Positions 677-19,693 of a DNA stretch of 64,000 nt are shown here, in pieces; position 1 is the first letter of the stretch; the number at the start of each line of letters is the position of its first letter. The DNA comes from a bacterium (GTDB lineage Bacteria > Myxococcota_A > Bradymonadia > UBA7976 > UBA1532): contig JAUHYW010000017.1 of NCBI GenBank assembly GCA_030426085.1, positions 1-64,000 on the forward strand, given 5' to 3'. Below the pieces are notes generated by a model that saw only the letters and a program-made list of their open reading frames with translations, was not told where the DNA came from and made no database searches. The position numbers were made by a program, and so were the translations under genes.

Positions 677-3600
677 TTATTGCTCGTCTTCGAGCGCAGG
701 CGGGCTCTTCGATACACGCAGTACGACACTTCGTACATCGCGGCCCGTATTCTGGGCGACCGCGCGAGCTTTGCGTCTCAGTACGTCCGCGAGATGGTCG
801 GGGTTGTCGCGATAGTCGCTCCTGACCTTTCGTTTGCGGCTGTCGGTGTCATCGGTCCAGTTGGCGGAATCGAACCACCAGACGACGTATACCCCTGAAG
901 CGTCGGGCATACGAGCGAGGTATTCGACCGCGAGCTGGTCTTGCACCGAGCTGATGACCTCGCGGTGCCAGCAGCCCTTGGCTTCGATGATCACTGTCAT
1001 GGGGCTTCGACCTGTCGCCAGACCGACCCGGATGTCCGCACGGCGCTGTCCGCTGGCGATGTCCGTCTCCCGGTCGACCGTCGACCTCGCCGATCGGGGG
1101 AGCCGCTCTTCGAGTCGGTTGCGTAGCCAATACGACAGCTCGTCTTCCGATTTGGGCCTCCGTTTCTCGTCCTCCCTTCGGCCTCGCGGGCCTTGTCGAT
1201 CCCAGAAGCTGGCGGTCTCCGCGTGCGCCCCGTCGATCAACTCCCATTGGATCAGCTCGAGGGCGCGCAGGACAGCATCCGCGAGCTCGGTCGAAGTCCT
1301 CGGTGGTCGGATGAGGGTCTCGAGGTCGGCCGGTGCAAAGGGCTCCCAATCGCGGGCATCGGCGTTGCGTTCGGCACGCGTCAGCCGGTCTGCCATGTGC
1401 GGGCTCGGATCGAGCTCCACCAGCCGACGGAGACCGTCGACCTCACCTGTCTGGACCATCGTTTGGATGAGACGGGCGGCCTCGCTGTGGAGCCAGTCGG
1501 CCGGCGTCATCGAATACGCGACGCCTTCAGGCACCTGGGTGGGCTCGAAGTGTTGCAAGAGCCACCAGGCGAGCTCCGCTCTCGCCTCGGGGGGAAGGCT
1601 ATCGGTGAAGGCGAAGTCCCGGCCGAGCACCCCGCCGTCGAGCCAGAGTCGCCGGCCCCAGGCTGCGTCGTCTCCCAGGCGCGACCAGACTCGGGGCCAG
1701 ACGCCATCTGGATCGTCACGCAGCAGTTCGAACGCGATCCGGGTCTCGTCGAAGTGAGCTTCGGCCCACTGCCGGGCCGCTTGGACCCGCTTGGGAAGAA
1801 GAAGGCACAGCAGAGGAGCACGCTCCAGGAGCGGCAGGGATGGCTCATCGAGAAGTTCGACGGCGGCTGTTTCCAGCGTGGCAGTGTAGACGTTGGCGGC
1901 CAACCCGAGGAGTCGCCGAAGCTCGAGGTCACCGTCGGTTCTGGCGCAGATGGCTGCGCGGTAGCGGTCGAGCCAAGCCTGACACCACGCTCCTGGTGCA
2001 TGCCGCTGGGCCAGCCGGTGAAGCTGACTCGTCATCTGAGTCGGGCGGGCCATCAGAAGCGGCAGCCATGCTCGCCACCTCTCGGCCGACACCGAGGCAA
2101 GGCGTTCGGGCGCACAGGTCGACAGAACCTCCCACGCTCGCAGCGTCCGACGATCGAGGTCGTGGCTCCCGTCGGAGGGGTCGCGTTGGATCTCCGCGCC
2201 GGCAAAGCTCAGGAGTCGCTCCCCCTGTTCAGCGGTGAGAGCTTCGAGTGCGTGGCCATCGAGCGACCACCACGAGCCCAGCCTGGTCTCCATCGCGATG
2301 TCGAGCAGCAACCAGCCGTGGTCGGCGTCGACTTCGATCGTCTCGAGCGCCACCTCGACGGTTGGGCTGTCGGCTCTCTTGGAGCGGGCTCTCCAGCGTC
2401 GGCGTTGTGCGATTCGCTCCTTGTGTCGATGGACGTAGGGCCCGGGGTCGAGTCGCCCGGCAATGGTTCGCTCGTAGGCCTCGATGTATGCGCTGAATCC
2501 TGGCAGCGCGCGGGCCCGGTCGATCAAGTCGTCGTGCTCGGGGCGCCGGAAGATCTGGCGCAGCATCTCGCCCCATCGGACCTTGTCGTCACCGTCGGCG
2601 TCCTCACCTGAGCCGAGGATGAATGGCGCGTCCTCGGGCCTAAGCAGCCCGAGCGGGTAGAGGCGGCGCCAGCCCCAGCGTAGGCCCGCGGGCTCTGACA
2701 AGATGTGACGCAGGACCATCTGGCGCCGGGCTTCGTCACCCGACCAGTCGATCTGGAGGCTGTTGCCGCGGGATTGGATGGCCCTGCTCAGAGCTGTGAG
2801 GATCGCCCCGGGCCGCAGGAACTCCCAGCATCGTCGGGCCACGCTGTCGGTGAACCGCTCGAGGTCGCTCCGGGGGCCGCGTCGGTCGAGATCGTTCAGC
2901 GCCCAATCGACGACGAGTGGCAACTGCTCTGGCGTGAATGAGTCGACGAGCCGATGCCGGTCATAGCGCCAACGGCCGAGCCCTCTGGGAGGGCGGAGGT
3001 GCCCGAGCAGCTCTTCGAGCGAGATGTACTCTGGCCACAGGATGGGGAGCGCCGCCGCGACGATGTCTTCCGAGTAGCGACCGGCCCCCGGGATGTCTTC
3101 GCCGTCGGGGTCGGGCAGCAGCGTGCGGAGGGCAGCCCGGTCGAAGTCCCCGTCGATATCGGCGAGAGCGTCGAGCGCCGAGGTCCTCGACCGATGCGAG
3201 CGGTCGCTGTCGAGCGCGATCGAGGCGAGACGGGGGGCGAGAGACGAGTAGCCGCTGTACTGGGCGATGTAGGCCGCCGCCTCCACCAGCTGGTCATCTC
3301 GATCGTCCAGCAGGGCGCCGACCTCGACTTCCATGCCGGGCCCGGCGAGGTTCAGCAAGGCGCGGTACTGTACGGCCAGCGACAGCTGGCCACCCCGGTG
3401 CCGCCTGACCAACCGGGCCAGCAGCGCCCGGCGAGCGTTCTGATCCAGGAAGGGGGCCCGCTCCAATACGCGGAGCGGCTCCTCACGGTGCAGTCGATCC
3501 TCGATCCAGCCGACGCGTTGGCCCAGCCAGGAGATCATCTCGAAGAGGGCCTCGGGGATGCGTCCGCGTCGGTTGCACGCGGCATCCCACGTCGCCTTGG

Positions 3601-5548
3601 GTTCGAGAGACGCGGCGGCATAGCGGGCGGCGAGGAAGTCGGCGAAGCTCTCGTGCACGAAGCGTCGACGGTCACCGCCACCGGCGAACAGGGGGCAGTC
3701 CAGGGCCTCGCGAATGTCGGAGAGGTCGTAGAGTCCCGCGTCTGTCAGGTCGTCGGCGCTCAGCCCGGGGCCGGGTCCAGGGGATGTGCTGAAGGTGGTG
3801 CGAGCGGTCATCACCCGAGCGAAGGCGATGAACGAGCTCACATCGAGTCGCTCCCCACTGCTCAGTTGTCGAGGGGGATGATCGTGCTGGTCGTGCGCCG
3901 GAGATCGGCACAGAGCCAGCGCCGCCCGCTCCTGGAGGTCCCACGGCGTCGAGTCCAGGGCGGCGGGCGGCTGACCTTCGGGCAGGTACAATCGGGTGAG
4001 GGAGAAGGGGTGGGCGGCCGACGGGCCCAGACGCAGCGCGTCGATGCGTGCCAGCCACTGCTCCGCGTCGTCGATCCGCTCGGCCGCATAGGCCCTGACG
4101 TCGGCTCGGGTCAGCGGCGCGAGAACGAAGGCCGGATGAGATGGCTCCTCGAAGAGTCGGGCGGGGACCGACCGGGCAAACATCTGCTCGATGCTCGAGG
4201 TCCAATATGCGGTCCGGCAGGTCAGGCGGAGCGTCGGCGTCGTGGCGCGCTTCACGGCCTCGCCGAGCATCCTGAAGAAGCGCCGGGGGCTCTGTCGGAA
4301 CAAGCCGGATTCGTCCAGACCGTCGATGTGCAGCGGTGGGTCACCGGTCCACTGATCGAGCTCTGCGCCCAGGTCCGCGCGCTCATCGATCTCGGCGCCG
4401 TAGACGAGGTGCACCGCCCCGGGTACGCCCCATGATTCGAGTTCCGTCGTCTTCCCGATGCCCGGTTCACCGAGCAGGATCGAGCAGCGGTAGGTGTCGA
4501 GGTCGCTTCGGTCGAAGAGGGCGTCCGCTCGGTAGCGACCCTCCGGGCTCCCCGGCTCGATGAGGTAGCCGCCTGCGATGACCGATTGCGGATCCACACC
4601 CGTCGCCGGCAGCCAATAGCGGTGCCACTGAGTAGGGGAGCCGGAGCGAACGGGCCGCTGAGCGGTCTGCGGTCCGGGGGGAGTCTCCGTCAGACTGAGC
4701 CGCGCGGCCATTGAGCGGAGGAGCGTGCTCTGTCGCCGGGCAGCCTTGGCCAGCAGCGGGTCGAGGCCATCGGCCGCCGACAGACGGGAGACGGGGCGAT
4801 GGCTCGTGCGGGACACGTCCATGAGCCCGGGGTGGTGGAGCAGGCGCCCGATGCACAACGGGTCGTTGACGATCTCGACGCCGAACTCTTCGGGGCGGCC
4901 AAGGACCTCTTGCCGGTACACTGCGGGCAAGGCCTTGGCCCAGTCGGCCGGCGCCAGATCGCGGACCACGGCCGTCGCGGGGTCGGCGCCGTTCAGCTCG
5001 AGGTACCCGGTGTCGTCCTCTTGCATCGGGACGCGACCGCGCAGCTCCTGCCCCAGCCTGCGGAGTTGCTGGATGCCTTCGTGGCTTGATCGGGCGGCGA
5101 CGACGACCCGATCGGCCAATCCCAACAGCGGCCAGAGCTGCGCGCGGTGCCGCCGACCCGTCGCGAGCAATACGGCCGCGGCGTCGACCTCCTCGATGAG
5201 GGTCTCCAGGCCCAGGCGCAGCTGCTCGGCCGGGGCATATCCGATCCCATCGCCTGCGGCGGGCGTCGCAGGGAGGAGCCACAGATCACGGTCGACCTCG
5301 CGGGCCGCATCCCTGGGCAGGGCGTTCATCAGCCACGCTCGTACGCCAGCGACCTGAGCCTGCCACTCCAGCTCTCGACGGTCCGCGTCGTCGAGTACGA
5401 GTCGGGTCAGGGCTCCGCTCTCGGTGAGGTCCAGGACGAGTACGGTCTGCCCCTCGTCCGCGACGACGCCGGCGAGGTTCCATGTCAGGAGCCCGAGCGG
5501 CTCGTCGTCGACCGCGCCAACGCAGGCGATGATCACTGGCCGGTTCAT
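677..5548 (-). CDS. Giant ParA-like / NACHT-type STAND NTPase / HEAT-like / PD-(D/E)XK nuclease protein (putative defence)
   Basis: 1623 residues. Residues 1-170 resemble the ParA/MinD fold, with a VLVLDLTESGALT strand where ParA has LLIDLDPQGN, but the deviant Walker A lysine motif is replaced by DDEPLGLLTW, so this domain probably cannot hydrolyse ATP. A STAND/NACHT-type ATPase follows, with P-loop GEPGIGKTT at 360-368 and Walker B-like LHIDGLDE at 406-413. Residues about 700-1400 are helical and HEAT-like, the usual sensor layout. The C-terminus carries a PD-(D/E)XK nuclease signature: D1505 in RADIRV, then VIIEAKG with E1522 and K1524, and a downstream Q-rich helix. The ATG overlaps the stop of the upstream AlbA_2/HATPase gene by 4 bp (ATGA), so the two are translationally coupled. 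NTPase sensors fused to nucleases are typical of Avs/NLR-like antiphage proteins, but here the nuclease is C-terminal. The exact family is not recognised, and the defence role is inferred. Confidence 0.8.
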   Translation of the reverse strand: MNRPVIIACVGAVDDEPLGLLTWNLAGVVADEGQTVLVLDLTESGALTRLVLDDADRRELEWQAQVAGVRAWLMNALPRDAAREVDRDLWLLPATPAAGDGIGYAPAEQLRLGLETLIEEVDAAAVLLATGRRHRAQLWPLLGLADRVVVAARSSHEGIQQLRRLGQELRGRVPMQEDDTGYLELNGADPATAVVRDLAPADWAKALPAVYRQEVLGRPEEFGVEIVNDPLCIGRLLHHPGLMDVSRTSHRPVSRLSAADGLDPLLAKAARRQSTLLRSMAARLSLTETPPGPQTAQRPVRSGSPTQWHRYWLPATGVDPQSVIAGGYLIEPGSPEGRYRADALFDRSDLDTYRCSILLGEPGIGKTTELESWGVPGAVHLVYGAEIDERADLGAELDQWTGDPPLHIDGLDESGLFRQSPRRFFRMLGEAVKRATTPTLRLTCRTAYWTSSIEQMFARSVPARLFEEPSHPAFVLAPLTRADVRAYAAERIDDAEQWLARIDALRLGPSAAHPFSLTRLYLPEGQPPAALDSTPWDLQERAALALCRSPAHDQHDHPPRQLSSGERLDVSSFIAFARVMTARTTFSTSPGPGPGLSADDLTDAGLYDLSDIREALDCPLFAGGGDRRRFVHESFADFLAARYAAASLEPKATWDAACNRRGRIPEALFEMISWLGQRVGWIEDRLHREEPLRVLERAPFLDQNARRALLARLVRRHRGGQLSLAVQYRALLNLAGPGMEVEVGALLDDRDDQLVEAAAYIAQYSGYSSLAPRLASIALDSDRSHRSRTSALDALADIDGDFDRAALRTLLPDPDGEDIPGAGRYSEDIVAAALPILWPEYISLEELLGHLRPPRGLGRWRYDRHRLVDSFTPEQLPLVVDWALNDLDRRGPRSDLERFTDSVARRCWEFLRPGAILTALSRAIQSRGNSLQIDWSGDEARRQMVLRHILSEPAGLRWGWRRLYPLGLLRPEDAPFILGSGEDADGDDKVRWGEMLRQIFRRPEHDDLIDRARALPGFSAYIEAYERTIAGRLDPGPYVHRHKERIAQRRRWRARSKRADSPTVEVALETIEVDADHGWLLLDIAMETRLGSWWSLDGHALEALTAEQGERLLSFAGAEIQRDPSDGSHDLDRRTLRAWEVLSTCAPERLASVSAERWRAWLPLLMARPTQMTSQLHRLAQRHAPGAWCQAWLDRYRAAICARTDGDLELRRLLGLAANVYTATLETAAVELLDEPSLPLLERAPLLCLLLPKRVQAARQWAEAHFDETRIAFELLRDDPDGVWPRVWSRLGDDAAWGRRLWLDGGVLGRDFAFTDSLPPEARAELAWWLLQHFEPTQVPEGVAYSMTPADWLHSEAARLIQTMVQTGEVDGLRRLVELDPSPHMADRLTRAERNADARDWEPFAPADLETLIRPPRTSTELADAVLRALELIQWELIDGAHAETASFWDRQGPRGRREDEKRRPKSEDELSYWLRNRLEERLPRSARSTVDRETDIASGQRRADIRVGLATGRSPMTVIIEAKGCWHREVISSVQDQLAVEYLARMPDASGVYVVWWFDSANWTDDTDSRKRKVRSDYRDNPDHLADVLRRKARAVAQNTGRDVRSVVLRVSKSPPALEDEQ

Positions 5549-6765
5549 GTCGCTGGGCGCAGTCTGACCAGGACCCGGCCGGATTCGGGCAGCAGCTCCA
5601 ACGGCGGGTTGCCGTTGTCTTCGAGCGCCTTCCGGGCGACGCTCAGACCCATGCCGAAGCGCTGCACATAGCGGAGGTCCTTGAGCGCGCCGGCGAGGTG
5701 GGGGTTGCGATAGTCGGTGACGCCATCGGTGCCGAAGTTGGCCTGCGTCACCTGACCATACGGACCGCCCGGGTTGCTGATCTCGACGCGGTCAGCGAAC
5801 CACCGAACCATCACAGGCGCGTTGGAATGCTCGTAGTCACGGTGCATGACCGCGTTGCGCAGCAGCTCGCGCAGGGCGATGAACGGGTACGTCGACTGCC
5901 GGTGTTCGAGGTCGGCGCTGATGTCTACGCGCTGCTCGATACTCAGCTTGAGCTTCTCTTCCACCCGCTGGATCACGTCGGGGATGGGTCCCTGCAGTTC
6001 GCTGGCATCGCGGATCGCTGTCGTGACGCTGTTGCCCTCATGGCGGATGAACTGGAGGTATGCGCCGGGGATGAAGGTCGTTGGAATCCGGGCGAACAGC
6101 AGCACGGCGAGCGCTGTCGGATGATCGGGCGCTTCGGGCGCGACCATCCGGGTCGCCATCAGCTGGTGCAGTTCGGAGCGGTGATTCTCGGCCAATACGC
6201 GCCGGGAGAAGGCATTGGGCAAGTACTCTTCATTGAACCGTTCGATGTCGATGTCTGTCAGAGTGGCATGGTGGAGTGGGCGCGCGTCGAAGGGGAGGTC
6301 GCGTGCCCGGCGCCGTTCGATCAGCTGCTGCTCCTGAGCGGGTGTGGCTCGGTCGACGCCAGGGCCCGTTCGGACCCAGACCTCGCGGTTCAATGCGACT
6401 GGGGGCGCGGCGTGAGGCAGCACCTGCATGACGGCCAGCGTCGCGTCGTCCAACTCGAAGCGCTCGACGAGCACTGTGGGCTTGGGCACGATCGAGCCGT
6501 CGGTCGACAGGTTGTTGAGCTGGTTGAGCAGCTTGTCGGTCACCTCCAGTCCCGACGAGCTGCCATCGTCTCCCTGACCGATGATGATCAAGCCGGGCTT
6601 CCGGTAGTTGGCCAGGTCGTTGGCGAAAGCACAGATGGCCCTGCGTACTTTCTTCGTCGCTGACGGTGAGAGTCGGGCCTTCCGTTCGACGCGGATCGAT
6701 TCATGATCGCGGGTCAGCGCGACAAGCGCCTCACGGTCCAGGAACTCGGGTCGGGTGCTGTGCAT
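5545..6765 (-). CDS. AlbA_2 (Schlafen-like) domain protein with HATPase_c_4-type ATPase domain
   Basis: 406 residues. The N-terminal ~140 residues match the AlbA_2 putative DNA-binding domain (ESIRVERKARLS, then FANDLANYRKPGLIIIGQGDDG). Residues about 290-400 form a GHKL ATP-binding fold: N-box RELLRNAVMHRDY at 299-311 with N304, a G1-like SNPGG at 330-334, and a QRFGMGL glycine-rich loop at 368-374. This architecture is common in proteins annotated as RecG-like or transcriptional regulators near restriction and defence genes. It is the first gene of a two-gene operon with the ParA-like/NACHT nuclease. No good Shine-Dalgarno precedes the ATG at 6765. It may act as DNA sensor or regulator for the nuclease partner; that role is inference. 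Confidence 0.85.
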   Translation of the reverse strand: MHSTRPEFLDREALVALTRDHESIRVERKARLSPSATKKVRRAICAFANDLANYRKPGLIIIGQGDDGSSSGLEVTDKLLNQLNNLSTDGSIVPKPTVLVERFELDDATLAVMQVLPHAAPPVALNREVWVRTGPGVDRATPAQEQQLIERRRARDLPFDARPLHHATLTDIDIERFNEEYLPNAFSRRVLAENHRSELHQLMATRMVAPEAPDHPTALAVLLFARIPTTFIPGAYLQFIRHEGNSVTTAIRDASELQGPIPDVIQRVEEKLKLSIEQRVDISADLEHRQSTYPFIALRELLRNAVMHRDYEHSNAPVMVRWFADRVEISNPGGPYGQVTQANFGTDGVTDYRNPHLAGALKDLRYVQRFGMGLSVARKALEDNGNPPLELLPESGRVLVRLRPAT

Positions 6766-15330: not shown

Positions 15331-16500
<1,170 letters not shown>

Positions 16501-16723
16501 CGGACTCTCGGCGGTGTCGGGGCGGACCGGGGCCCGCGGGTTCCAGACGATTTCGGGGGCTCGAGCCGACGGCCACCGTCGCCGAATCCCGGGTCGGACG
16601 CAAGCAGATGCCTCGCCGGCTCTGCCGGTGACGGTCGGGCGTATTCTGGATCCGGTTCAGTGACTACCGAATAATGCACTCGCACGGGATCACGGGTCGC
16701 TCGGCGGCCGAAGGCGGAGGCTC

Positions 16724-19693
16724 ATGGGTCACGCACGCGCTCTGGGGCTGATCGTGGTGGGGCTGCTCGCGGCCGGGGCCGCCGGCTGCACCCGGGAGAA
16801 CCCGGACTACGTCGATCGGGCCGACGCCGAGGCCGATCCGGTCCACGACGCCGGGGCCGAGGTGGGGCTCGCCGACGGCGGGGTGCCGGGCGACGACGCG
16901 GGTGATCCCGACGTCGGCGATCCGGTGGTGGATCCCGACGTCGGGGCGTCCGATCGGGGGCCGGACGGGGCGCTGCCCGAGGACGGCGACGGGGACGGGG
17001 TGCCGGCGGGCGAGGACTGCGACGACGGTGATCGGGCGGTGCGCCCCGGGGCGCCCGAGCGGTGCAACGGGGTCGACGACGACTGCGACGACGCCGTCGA
17101 CGAGGCCTTCCCCACGCTGGGCGCGCCGTGCGCCGCGGGGGTGGGCGCCTGCGCGGCGGATGGGGTCCGGGTCTGCCTCGACGACGGGTCGGTGGGCTGC
17201 GGCGCGGTCCCCGGGGCGCCGCGGGACGAGGTCTGCGACGAGGTCGACGACGACTGCGACGGGGCGGTGGACGAGCAGGTCGCCGGCTGCTGCGCGCCGG
17301 GGGACGAGCGGGCCTGCGGGCTGGACGTCGGCGCGTGCCGGCCGGGCGGGCAGGTCTGCGGCGCCGACGGGGTCTTCGGGCCGTGCATCGGCGGGGTGGC
17401 GCCCGGGCCCGAGCGGTGCGACGGCAGCGACGCCGACTGCGACGGCGCGGTGGACGAGGGCTTCGAAGTCGGCGCGCCGTGCGAGGAGGGGGTCGGCGCC
17501 TGCCGCGCGTCGGGGGTGACGGTCTGCGTCGGCGGCGCGGTGGCGTGCGACGCGGCGTCGGGTGATCCGGCGGACGAGCTGTGCAACGGGCTGGACGACG
17601 ACTGCGATGGGGCGGTGGACGAGCCGTTCCCCGGCGTGGGCGGGCCGTGCGTGGCGGGGCAGGGGGCCTGCGCCCGGGAGGGCCGCACGGTCTGCGCCGG
17701 GGACGCGGTGGCCTGCGACGCCGAGCCGGGGCGGCCGGCGGACGAGGTGTGCGACGGGGTCGACGACGACTGCGACGGCGCGATCGACGAGGCGGTGGGC
17801 GGGGGCATGCCGTGCGTGGTGGGCGTCGGCGCCTGCCGGCGGGAGGGCGTGATGCTGTGCAACGCGGCGGGTGATCCGGCGTGCGACGTGGCGCCCGGCC
17901 CCCGCGCGGCGGAGCGGTGCAACGGGCTGGACGACGACTGCGACGGGGCGGTGGACGAGCCGTTCCCCGAGCTGGGCGAGGACTGCGTCGTGCAGGCCGG
18001 CGGCTGCGCGTCGCCCGGGGCCTGGGTCTGCGCCGACGACGGCGAGGGGGCCACCTGCGCCGCGCCGCCGATCGAGGGCGCCGACGAGCGGTGCAACGGG
18101 GCGGACGACGACTGCGACGGGGCGGTGGACGAGGGCTTCGGCGTGGGCGAGGCCTGCGTCGCCGGGCGCGGGGCGTGCGGGGCGCAGGGGCGGCAGGTCT
18201 GCGCCGACGGGGGCGAGGCGGTCGAGTGCGACGCGGCGCCCGGCGCGCCGGCCGACGAGCGGTGCAACGGGATCGACGACGACTGCGACGGCACGCCCGA
18301 CGAGGGCTTCGGCCTGGGCCAGCCGTGCCGGGCCGGGCTCGGGGCGTGCGCGGTCGACGGGGTCGGGATCTGCCGCGACGGCGAGCCGGCGTGCGAAGGC
18401 GAGCCCGGCCCGCCGGGCGACGAGGTGTGCGACGCGGTCGACAACGACTGCGACGGGGCGGTCGACGAGGGGCTGGACGACGCCTGCGGGGGCTGCGGCC
18501 CGCCGCCGCCGGAGACCTGCGATGGCACGGACGAGGACTGCGACGGGCAGGTGGACGAGGGGGTCGGGATCTGCGCGGTGCTCGTCGGCACGCTGGACGC
18601 GCCGGCCGATACGGCGGGCTTCGGGGCGGTGCTGGCCGCGGCGGGTGATCTGGACGGGGACGGGGTGGGCGACGCCCTGGTGGGCGCGCCGGAGGGGGCC
18701 GCGGGGGCCGCGGCGCTGGTGAGCGGGGCCGACGGGGGCCTGATCTGGTCCGCGCCCGGTGAGGTGACCTTCGGCACGGCGGTCGCCGCGGGCGACACCG
18801 ACGGGGACGGCGTGCGCGAGCTGTTCGTCGGCGTGCCGGGGGTCGCGAACGGGGTCGTCGTCCAGCTCGATCCGGCCGGCGACGAGGTGCGGCGCTTCGA
18901 GGGCGGCCCCGGCTTCCGGGCCGGGCGGGCGCTGGTGGCCGTAGACGGCGCGCCGTGGCTGGCCATGGGTGATCGCGACGCCCGGGCGACCGCCTTCGGG
19001 CCCGCCGGCGCGCTGCGCTTCATCGTCTTCGGCGAGGGGGTCATCGAGGAGATCACCCTCGAAGGTCAGGCCGGCGAGGCGCTGGGCGATCGGCTCTTCG
19101 AGGCCCCCAACCGGGGCGCGGTGGGCGTGCCCGACATCGTCGCCACCGCCGAGGACTTCCTCGACCGCACCGTCCGGGTCCTCGTCGATCCGCCCGGCGG
19201 CGGCGCGGGCGAGCTGCTGGCGGCGCCCTTCACCAACGGCAGCTTCGGCGAGGGCTTCGCTTTCGGTCGGCTGCTGGCCGGCGAGCCGGTGATCTCGGCG
19301 TTCGGCGCGCCGCTGGCCGGCAATCGGCAGGGCGGGGGAGTCTACCTCTACGACGCCGACGGGGTGGGTGTCGGGGGCCTGCTGAGCAACGGCGGACGGG
19401 GTGATCGGCTGGGCCACCGGCTGGCGGCGCTGCCCCGCCCCGACGCCGACCGGGACGCGCTGATCCTGACCGGCGAGGCGATGCGCGAGCTGCGCATCTG
19501 GGAGCTGCTGCGGGGGGCCGACGGCCGCCCGGTCATCGCCACCTCGACCCCGGTTCGGGCGGACGGCGCCCGGGATGGCTTCGGCAAGGGGCTGGCCTTG
19601 GGTGATGTGGGGGCCGATGGCACCCGGCGTCTCTTCGTCGGCGAGCCCGGGGCGATGGGTGGTGGCCGGGTCTACGTCTTCTCGGTCCGGTGA
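16724..19693 (+). CDS. MopE-like lipoprotein with ten Cys/Asp metal-binding repeats and an FG-GAP-like C-terminal half
   Basis: 989 residues, ATG with GGAGG just upstream. The signal peptide ends GAAGC, a lipoprotein box. After an Asp-rich linker, a DGDGVPAGEDCDDGD calcium-type motif opens a series of ten units of the pattern C(N/D)GxDDDCDGAVDE, spaced about 45-60 residues with other paired cysteines between them. These are the putative metal-binding repeats named after MopE and abundant in Myxococcota secreted proteins. The C-terminal ~380 residues contain FG-GAP-like blades (AAAGDLDGDGVGDALVGAPE, then GDTDGDGVRELFVGVPG), suggesting a beta-propeller. It is probably a surface adhesion or scaffold protein stabilised by calcium and disulfides. 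Upstream gap 16501-16723 holds only the likely promoter region. Confidence 0.88.
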   Translation: MGHARALGLIVVGLLAAGAAGCTRENPDYVDRADAEADPVHDAGAEVGLADGGVPGDDAGDPDVGDPVVDPDVGASDRGPDGALPEDGDGDGVPAGEDCDDGDRAVRPGAPERCNGVDDDCDDAVDEAFPTLGAPCAAGVGACAADGVRVCLDDGSVGCGAVPGAPRDEVCDEVDDDCDGAVDEQVAGCCAPGDERACGLDVGACRPGGQVCGADGVFGPCIGGVAPGPERCDGSDADCDGAVDEGFEVGAPCEEGVGACRASGVTVCVGGAVACDAASGDPADELCNGLDDDCDGAVDEPFPGVGGPCVAGQGACAREGRTVCAGDAVACDAEPGRPADEVCDGVDDDCDGAIDEAVGGGMPCVVGVGACRREGVMLCNAAGDPACDVAPGPRAAERCNGLDDDCDGAVDEPFPELGEDCVVQAGGCASPGAWVCADDGEGATCAAPPIEGADERCNGADDDCDGAVDEGFGVGEACVAGRGACGAQGRQVCADGGEAVECDAAPGAPADERCNGIDDDCDGTPDEGFGLGQPCRAGLGACAVDGVGICRDGEPACEGEPGPPGDEVCDAVDNDCDGAVDEGLDDACGGCGPPPPETCDGTDEDCDGQVDEGVGICAVLVGTLDAPADTAGFGAVLAAAGDLDGDGVGDALVGAPEGAAGAAALVSGADGGLIWSAPGEVTFGTAVAAGDTDGDGVRELFVGVPGVANGVVVQLDPAGDEVRRFEGGPGFRAGRALVAVDGAPWLAMGDRDARATAFGPAGALRFIVFGEGVIEEITLEGQAGEALGDRLFEAPNRGAVGVPDIVATAEDFLDRTVRVLVDPPGGGAGELLAAPFTNGSFGEGFAFGRLLAGEPVISAFGAPLAGNRQGGGVYLYDADGVGVGGLLSNGGRGDRLGHRLAALPRPDADRDALILTGEAMRELRIWELLRGADGRPVIATSTPVRADGARDGFGKGLALGDVGADGTRRLFVGEPGAMGGGRVYVFSVR

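Follow-up and report, generated by a model that had tools for sequence, protein, structure and literature searches.

The described systems closest to the locus analysed here are antiphage proteins built on a STAND or NACHT ATPase. Avs (AVAST) proteins combine a STAND ATPase with repeats and a nuclease, and their effectors are N-terminal. EruA, represented by the NCBIfam model NF058535 ("NACHT domain-containing antiphage protein EruA"), has a STAND ATPase, long repeats and a C-terminal nuclease region, and HyoA (NF058534) is another NACHT antiphage protein; neither of these two names was found in the open-access literature. DS-8 is an antiphage NACHT-metallophosphatase (PMC13092281).

We analysed a pair of genes on the minus strand of a 64,000-nucleotide stretch of DNA, here called the window, which opens at the start of a contig (C47) in a draft genome of 10.1 Mb and 178 contigs. 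The genes are coupled, as a preliminary description made from the letters had proposed: gene A (5545..6765; 406 aa), with a Schlafen AlbA_2 domain and a GHKL/HATPase_c_4 domain, overlaps gene B (677..5548; 1623 aa) by the four bases ATGA at 5545..5548, which hold the stop of the one and the start of the other. Gene B encodes a degenerate ParA head, a STAND ATPase, helical repeats and a C-terminal nuclease, and the residue numbers given for it earlier (K366, D1505, E1522 and K1524) all proved exact. No further defence genes were seen beside the pair in the window, where the end of gene B lies only 676 bases from the contig end. Short GC-rich tandem repeats occur at 214-334 and 522-574, between the contig end and gene B.

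We read the pair, with moderate confidence, as a phage defence of the abortive-infection type, in which an NLR-like immune nuclease carries a dead ParA head that would dock the product of gene A. A defence role is likely, and the pair is real, intact and probably functional. The core of gene B is of a known kind; what is new is that a dead ParA has been captured as its head, together with the cassette formed by gene A and ParA, the sister pairs in which ParA is coupled to SIR2, and an exchange of effectors between related fusions.

Gene B is built on an EruA-like core

Pfam recognised almost nothing in gene B, and the best guide to its core was NF058535, which matched with an E value of 3.1e-46 and 158.1 bits (best stretch, residues 346-1086), far from the NCBI curated cut-off of 1000; the C-terminal positions 1094-1278 of the model matched separately at window positions 854-1432 (E 4e-18). 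This match, together with conserved residues, placed a STAND/NACHT ATPase and winged-helix region at residues ~300-660 (3569..4651). The P-loop GEPGIGKTT occupies residues 360-368 (4445..4471), and because it begins at residue 360 its lysine is K366. In an alignment of 66 relatives, K366, D412, E413 and H632 were universal and R445 was 98% conserved, so that the NACHT/STAND motifs of EruA type (K366, D412 and E413) are present in gene B and in all 66 relatives. The STAND ATPase that had been read from the P-loop is thereby confirmed. The claim of HEAT-like repeats held in part: the helical region between the ATPase and the nuclease (residues ~660-1390; 1379..3571) was recognised from its position and from HEAT_2 matches in two relatives (L136 and L010), and Pfam found no such repeats in the window protein. 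This region is likely to be the ligand sensor.

As in EruA, the ATPase, the long repeats and the nuclease region follow one another, and all three align with gene B; gene B differs by the addition of a 295-aa ParA-derived head and by its coupling to gene A. Judged by sequence, gene B without this head (residues ~300-1620) is a distant homologue of EruA and, by the NCBI cut-off, not EruA itself. Avs proteins follow the same general plan (STAND ATPase, repeats, nuclease), but the nuclease of gene B is at the C-terminus, unlike the Avs effectors, and gene B matched no PADLOC family up to an E value of 1, AVAST included. HyoA was matched by three relatives of gene B (L003, L004 and L010) and weakly by one fusion described below (L135); for the window protein itself, HyoA was not among the NCBIfam matches listed.

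An alignment-based scan for relatives of gene B found them encoded in at least 164 of 596 candidate stretches from many phyla. Relatives were found on plasmids, on one viral contig and at 79 genome loci. Complete relatives are standalone proteins of ~1400 aa that begin near window residue 300, and none of the genome-scan relatives examined had a match to the head or to gene A nearby. The core of gene B thus belongs to a large and widespread family of ~1400-aa STAND-repeat-nuclease proteins, within which the window core sits on a long branch. The preliminary description had called the locus a defence candidate, a reading upheld by the homology of the core to antiphage EruA, and had added that its layout matched no named system. 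The latter does not stand, since the STAND-repeat-nuclease part matches EruA, and the standalone relatives share both its layout and its conserved residues, which makes the layout one of a known kind. Among the neighbours of these relatives we noted HKD-SNF2 and type IIG RM genes alongside the member on the viral contig (L010), a TIR gene near L003 and a NACHT gene near L005.

The C-terminus of gene B is modelled as a PD-(D/E)XK nuclease

The nuclease signature noted at the C-terminus (residues ~1460-1580; 809..1171) was examined with an AlphaFold2 model of residues 1358-1623, built on an alignment of 35 relatives. The model (mean pLDDT 86) indicated a restriction-endonuclease fold with elements in the order alpha-beta-beta-beta-alpha-beta (model elements 111-202): a helix at 1468-1482, strands at 1490-1496, 1503-1510 and 1517-1525, a helix at 1534-1546 and a strand at 1550-1559. 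The putative catalytic residues D1505, E1522-x-K1524, Q1538 and Y1543 (920..1036) fall on these elements as a D..ExK motif with a trailing Q..Y, D1505 being on the second strand, E1522 and K1524 on the third, and Q1538 and Y1543 on the helix that follows. They were 83-88% identical among the 66 relatives and invariant in the 35-sequence alignment (A7; D148, E165, K167, Q181 and Y186 in model numbering).

A plain Foldseek search with the model returned nothing significant (best E 0.035). Structural re-alignment placed BamHI on top (Z 9.0 over 160 residues, rmsd 4.7); the entries below it were mostly nucleases that share the fold, namely Can2, PaqCI, McrC, EndoMS, FokI, Hachiman HamA and Avs4 (Z 5.5 for the last). 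The Z values of 7-9 are modest, but in combination with the invariant motif they lead us to take the predicted PD-(D/E)XK fold as established and nuclease activity as likely.

Gene A is usually coupled to a standalone ParA

Both folds attributed to gene A scored above the Pfam cut-offs. The AlbA_2 domain (residues 22-140; 6346..6702) matched PF04326 with an E value of 1.4e-11 and 45.4 bits (cut-off 25.3), and the GHKL ATPase part, which runs from the N box to the G2 box (residues ~296-400; 5566..5880), matched PF13749 with an E value of 3.1e-16 and 59.6 bits (cut-off 26). Across 29 aligned homologues, E22, E27, N49 and D50 were 97% conserved and N304, H308, G333 and G373 were 100% conserved. 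As the Schlafen-type carboxylates E22 and E27 and the ATP-binding boxes of the GHKL part are kept in nearly all homologues, gene A could act either as a gate or as an additional effector.

We examined what follows gene A in its homologues at Myxococcota loci, some of which are cut by contig ends. For 21 of 33 homologues the next gene encodes a ParA, 17 times with an overlap of four bases like that between A and B, and for two further homologues it is a giant fusion, again with a 4-base overlap. In one locus (L134) the homologue is followed by a 213-aa protein that retains the ParA tail alone. For roughly one quarter to one third of the homologues no ParA was detected alongside, in part because contigs end there. 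These standalone partners are ATPases of the ParA family (AAA_31, E 3.7e-27) in which NKGGVGKT is intact and the long, conserved tail ends in KP(I/M)F.L..ADGA.G.H. We also considered gene A as a dedicated partner of the nuclease and rejected this, because it is absent near the EruA-like loci examined, whereas ParA adjoins it. Matches of ParA to PADLOC PDC-M28B were disregarded, as they are confined to the Walker A stretch.

The coupling of gene A to ParA also bears on whether gene A might be a transcriptional or RNA-binding regulator that silences gene B through the head, the two forming a toxin and its control protein. Plasmid relatives of gene A are indeed annotated as RNA-binding, DNA-binding or transcriptional regulators, and A and B are translationally coupled. 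The coupling of A to ParA is nevertheless conserved where there is no nuclease, and gene A is for that reason not an antitoxin dedicated to B; moreover, it matched no helix-turn-helix family in Pfam. We regard a regulator of this kind as quite improbable.

The head of gene B is a degenerate ParA

The first 295 residues of gene B (4664..5548) align with a profile of 14 standalone ParA proteins (hhalign Prob 97.5, E 8.5e-12, 258 columns, 30% identity). At the Walker A site the window head reads VGAVDDEPLGLLTW where standalone ParA reads NNKGGVGKTTLAYH, so that the head is homologous to ParA/MinD in fold and sequence but lacks the deviant Walker A motif KGGVGKT. A model of the head resembled the ParA family, Soj and MinD (Z ~21), as had been anticipated from the degenerate ParA-like N-terminus without a Walker A lysine; the domain had been placed in the first 170 residues, and the ParA likeness was right but the homology reaches to about residue 295. 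The model (pLDDT 67, pTM 0.69; pLDDT ~88-92 in the tail at about residues 241-280) was built with ParA relatives from viral contigs in its alignment, and for this reason it supports the homology and is no independent proof of it. With this model and that of the C-terminus, neither of the two outcomes named beforehand as speaking against the preliminary description, an N-terminus unlike ParA/MinD or a C-terminal motif outside a nuclease fold, was observed. The window head is thus like ParA, Soj and MinD in fold and sequence, including PDB 3pg5, but differs from them in having lost the P-loop lysine and in being fused to an immune nuclease.

The head alone had no Pfam match and no plasmid match by tblastn. 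When 379 genomes of the Myxococcota group, the phylum of the window, were searched, residues ~199-290 were weakly matched, for the most part by ORFs 320-450 aa long. Head-matching ORFs lay directly 3' of close gene A homologues, and on these matches we rejected the notion that no protein but that of the window has such a head. The best-kept part of the head is its C-terminal tail (residues ~199-283; 4700..4954), on which the preliminary description was silent and which carries the ParA-family motifs P..Y...VLG, DPLC and P(V/I)xxL..ADG. Since gene A is usually coupled to a standalone ParA, we conclude that the window carries the cassette of gene A and ParA with the ParA inactivated and fused to an EruA-like nuclease.

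Integrated decoys of plant NLRs lose their nucleotide site and keep their fold. The head has done the same, and it could be a decoy of this kind, meant for ParA-targeting factors of phages or plasmids, as the preliminary description hinted. The position of the family beside gene A accounts for the head without a decoy, and what is best conserved is the very tail that is common to the ParA partners of gene A; a decoy seems to us very improbable. We see in the head not simply a decoy but the ParA that normally partners gene A, in degenerate form. Because the fold and tail of that partner survive while the ATP site is gone, we propose that the head is a docking surface for gene A.

Related fusions in a sister genome exchange effectors

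Two homologues of gene A in another genome of the same family (G038) are followed by proteins of 1790 aa (L135) and 1470 aa (L136), which share 48% identity over ~1285 residues, a stretch that takes in the STAND ATPase and the repeats, and differ at their C-termini. In L135 the terminal part is a metallophosphoesterase (PF00149; NCBIfam DS8 and DS9_1; PADLOC PDC-S60) together with EAD1; in L136 it is an EruA-like nuclease. At the level of sequence, the effector has been swapped while the chassis is shared. Like DS-8, L135 joins a STAND ATPase to a DS8-like metallophosphoesterase, but it has this enzyme at its C-terminus and is coupled to gene A; the window protein has a nuclease in place of the phosphoesterase. 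The coupled fusion (L135:9022-14394) is followed by a NACHT-FGE-sulfatase gene (15975-18001).

The N-terminal ~190 residues of both proteins resemble ParA (hhalign E 7e-4 to 0.03) and the window head (E 7e-4) weakly. With such values, and with a basis that is mostly gene position and a short motif, we regard these N-termini as probable rather than proven ParA-derived heads. As to whether the fusions in the window and in G038 share an origin, the tree of gene A calls for two changes and that of the core for one, in both cases with weak support and long branches.

These fusions have to be weighed against another account, in which gene B is an ordinary EruA-type nuclease, the head is a passive leftover of a decayed ParA fused in frame, and gene A is irrelevant or merely co-transcribed. 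The standalone EruA relatives that do without head and gene A are in keeping with it, as are the missing Walker A and the long branch of the window core. But the reading frame is intact and the ParA fold and tail have been kept, the A-B overlap is identical to that of the A-ParA operons, G038 has two comparable fusions, and the short protein after gene A in L134 bears the tail. We consider a mere leftover unlikely and favor a head that docks gene A.

Proposed mechanism

In the docking mechanism that we favor as the most economical one, the repeats of gene B would sense a phage product, the STAND ATPase would bind ATP at K366 and oligomerise, and this clustering would switch on the C-terminal PD-(D/E)XK nuclease, which would then cut DNA. 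The usual partner of gene A is a separate ParA ATPase made from the next gene; in the window, this ParA has lost its nucleotide site but not its C-terminal tail, and it now forms the N-terminal head of the immune nuclease. The head most likely docks gene A on the nuclease, with the tail at ~199-283 as the proposed docking site, and gene A would serve either as a second effector, E22 and E27 being kept, or as a gate that is released upon activation. The EruA-like part may well sense and kill unaided, as its standalone relatives presumably do.

Tail-bearing ParA proteins in other defence contexts

Outside Myxococcota, the spread of the gene A and ParA cassette was followed on viral contigs and plasmids. 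Two viral contigs carry it (L189 and L190), and in the latter gene A and ParA lie inside a BREX operon (L190:2755-4981), with PglX on one side and PglZ-BrxL on the other. In a defence island (L127:2974-16001), SngB and SngC of Shango are accompanied by gene A, ParA, a Ppl-like ATPase, a second AlbA_2-like gene and a DNA methylase. Another homologue of gene A (L179), beside which no ParA was detected, precedes a gene for a BrxHI-type helicase.

Tail-bearing ParA is also coupled to a different partner, SIR2_2, in 18 viral contigs (L193-L197, L199-L210 and L216) and on three plasmids, from Salmonella, Spirosoma and Vibrio (L143, L145 and L146). These pairs usually have a 4-base overlap and often adjoin phage genes, such as that for an integrase. 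In the open-access literature we found no account of ParA paired with SIR2 or with AlbA_2, and ParA with SIR2_2 is an apparently unnamed two-gene defence candidate. The neighbours of the ParA pairs are typical of phage defence, which points to a ParA-based defence module that is unnamed and widespread.

More tentatively, and with slightly less than even confidence, we suggest that the tail-bearing ParA subfamily is a shared sensor or switch of unnamed two-gene phage defences with interchangeable partners, SIR2 or Schlafen-AlbA_2/GHKL, which are found in prophages, plasmids and BREX operons. NLR-type proteins would have captured this ParA as an inactive docking head and so become receptors that recruit a second effector. 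Bacterial NLR-like proteins would then be linked to a second, apparently unnamed module of ParA with AlbA_2/GHKL or SIR2. The capture would be modular, in that one partner gene occurs beside a live ParA in some loci and, in others, beside an immune receptor that has a dead ParA fused to it and an exchangeable C-terminal effector; it would parallel the helper or integrated-domain logic of plant NLRs and would allow direct tests of the part of ParA in defence.

Two standalone ParA genes, at L131:9550-10806 and L176:6315-7574, have a K-to-Q change in the P-loop (FLNSRGDVGQT and FLNSKGDVGQT), which suggests that ATP turnover has been lost repeatedly in the family. The standalone ParA profile (A5) matched PDB 3pg5, the Corynebacterium protein DIP2308, over its full length (E 3.3e-49); this uncharacterised structural-genomics structure represents the tail-bearing ParA family and could guide docking models.
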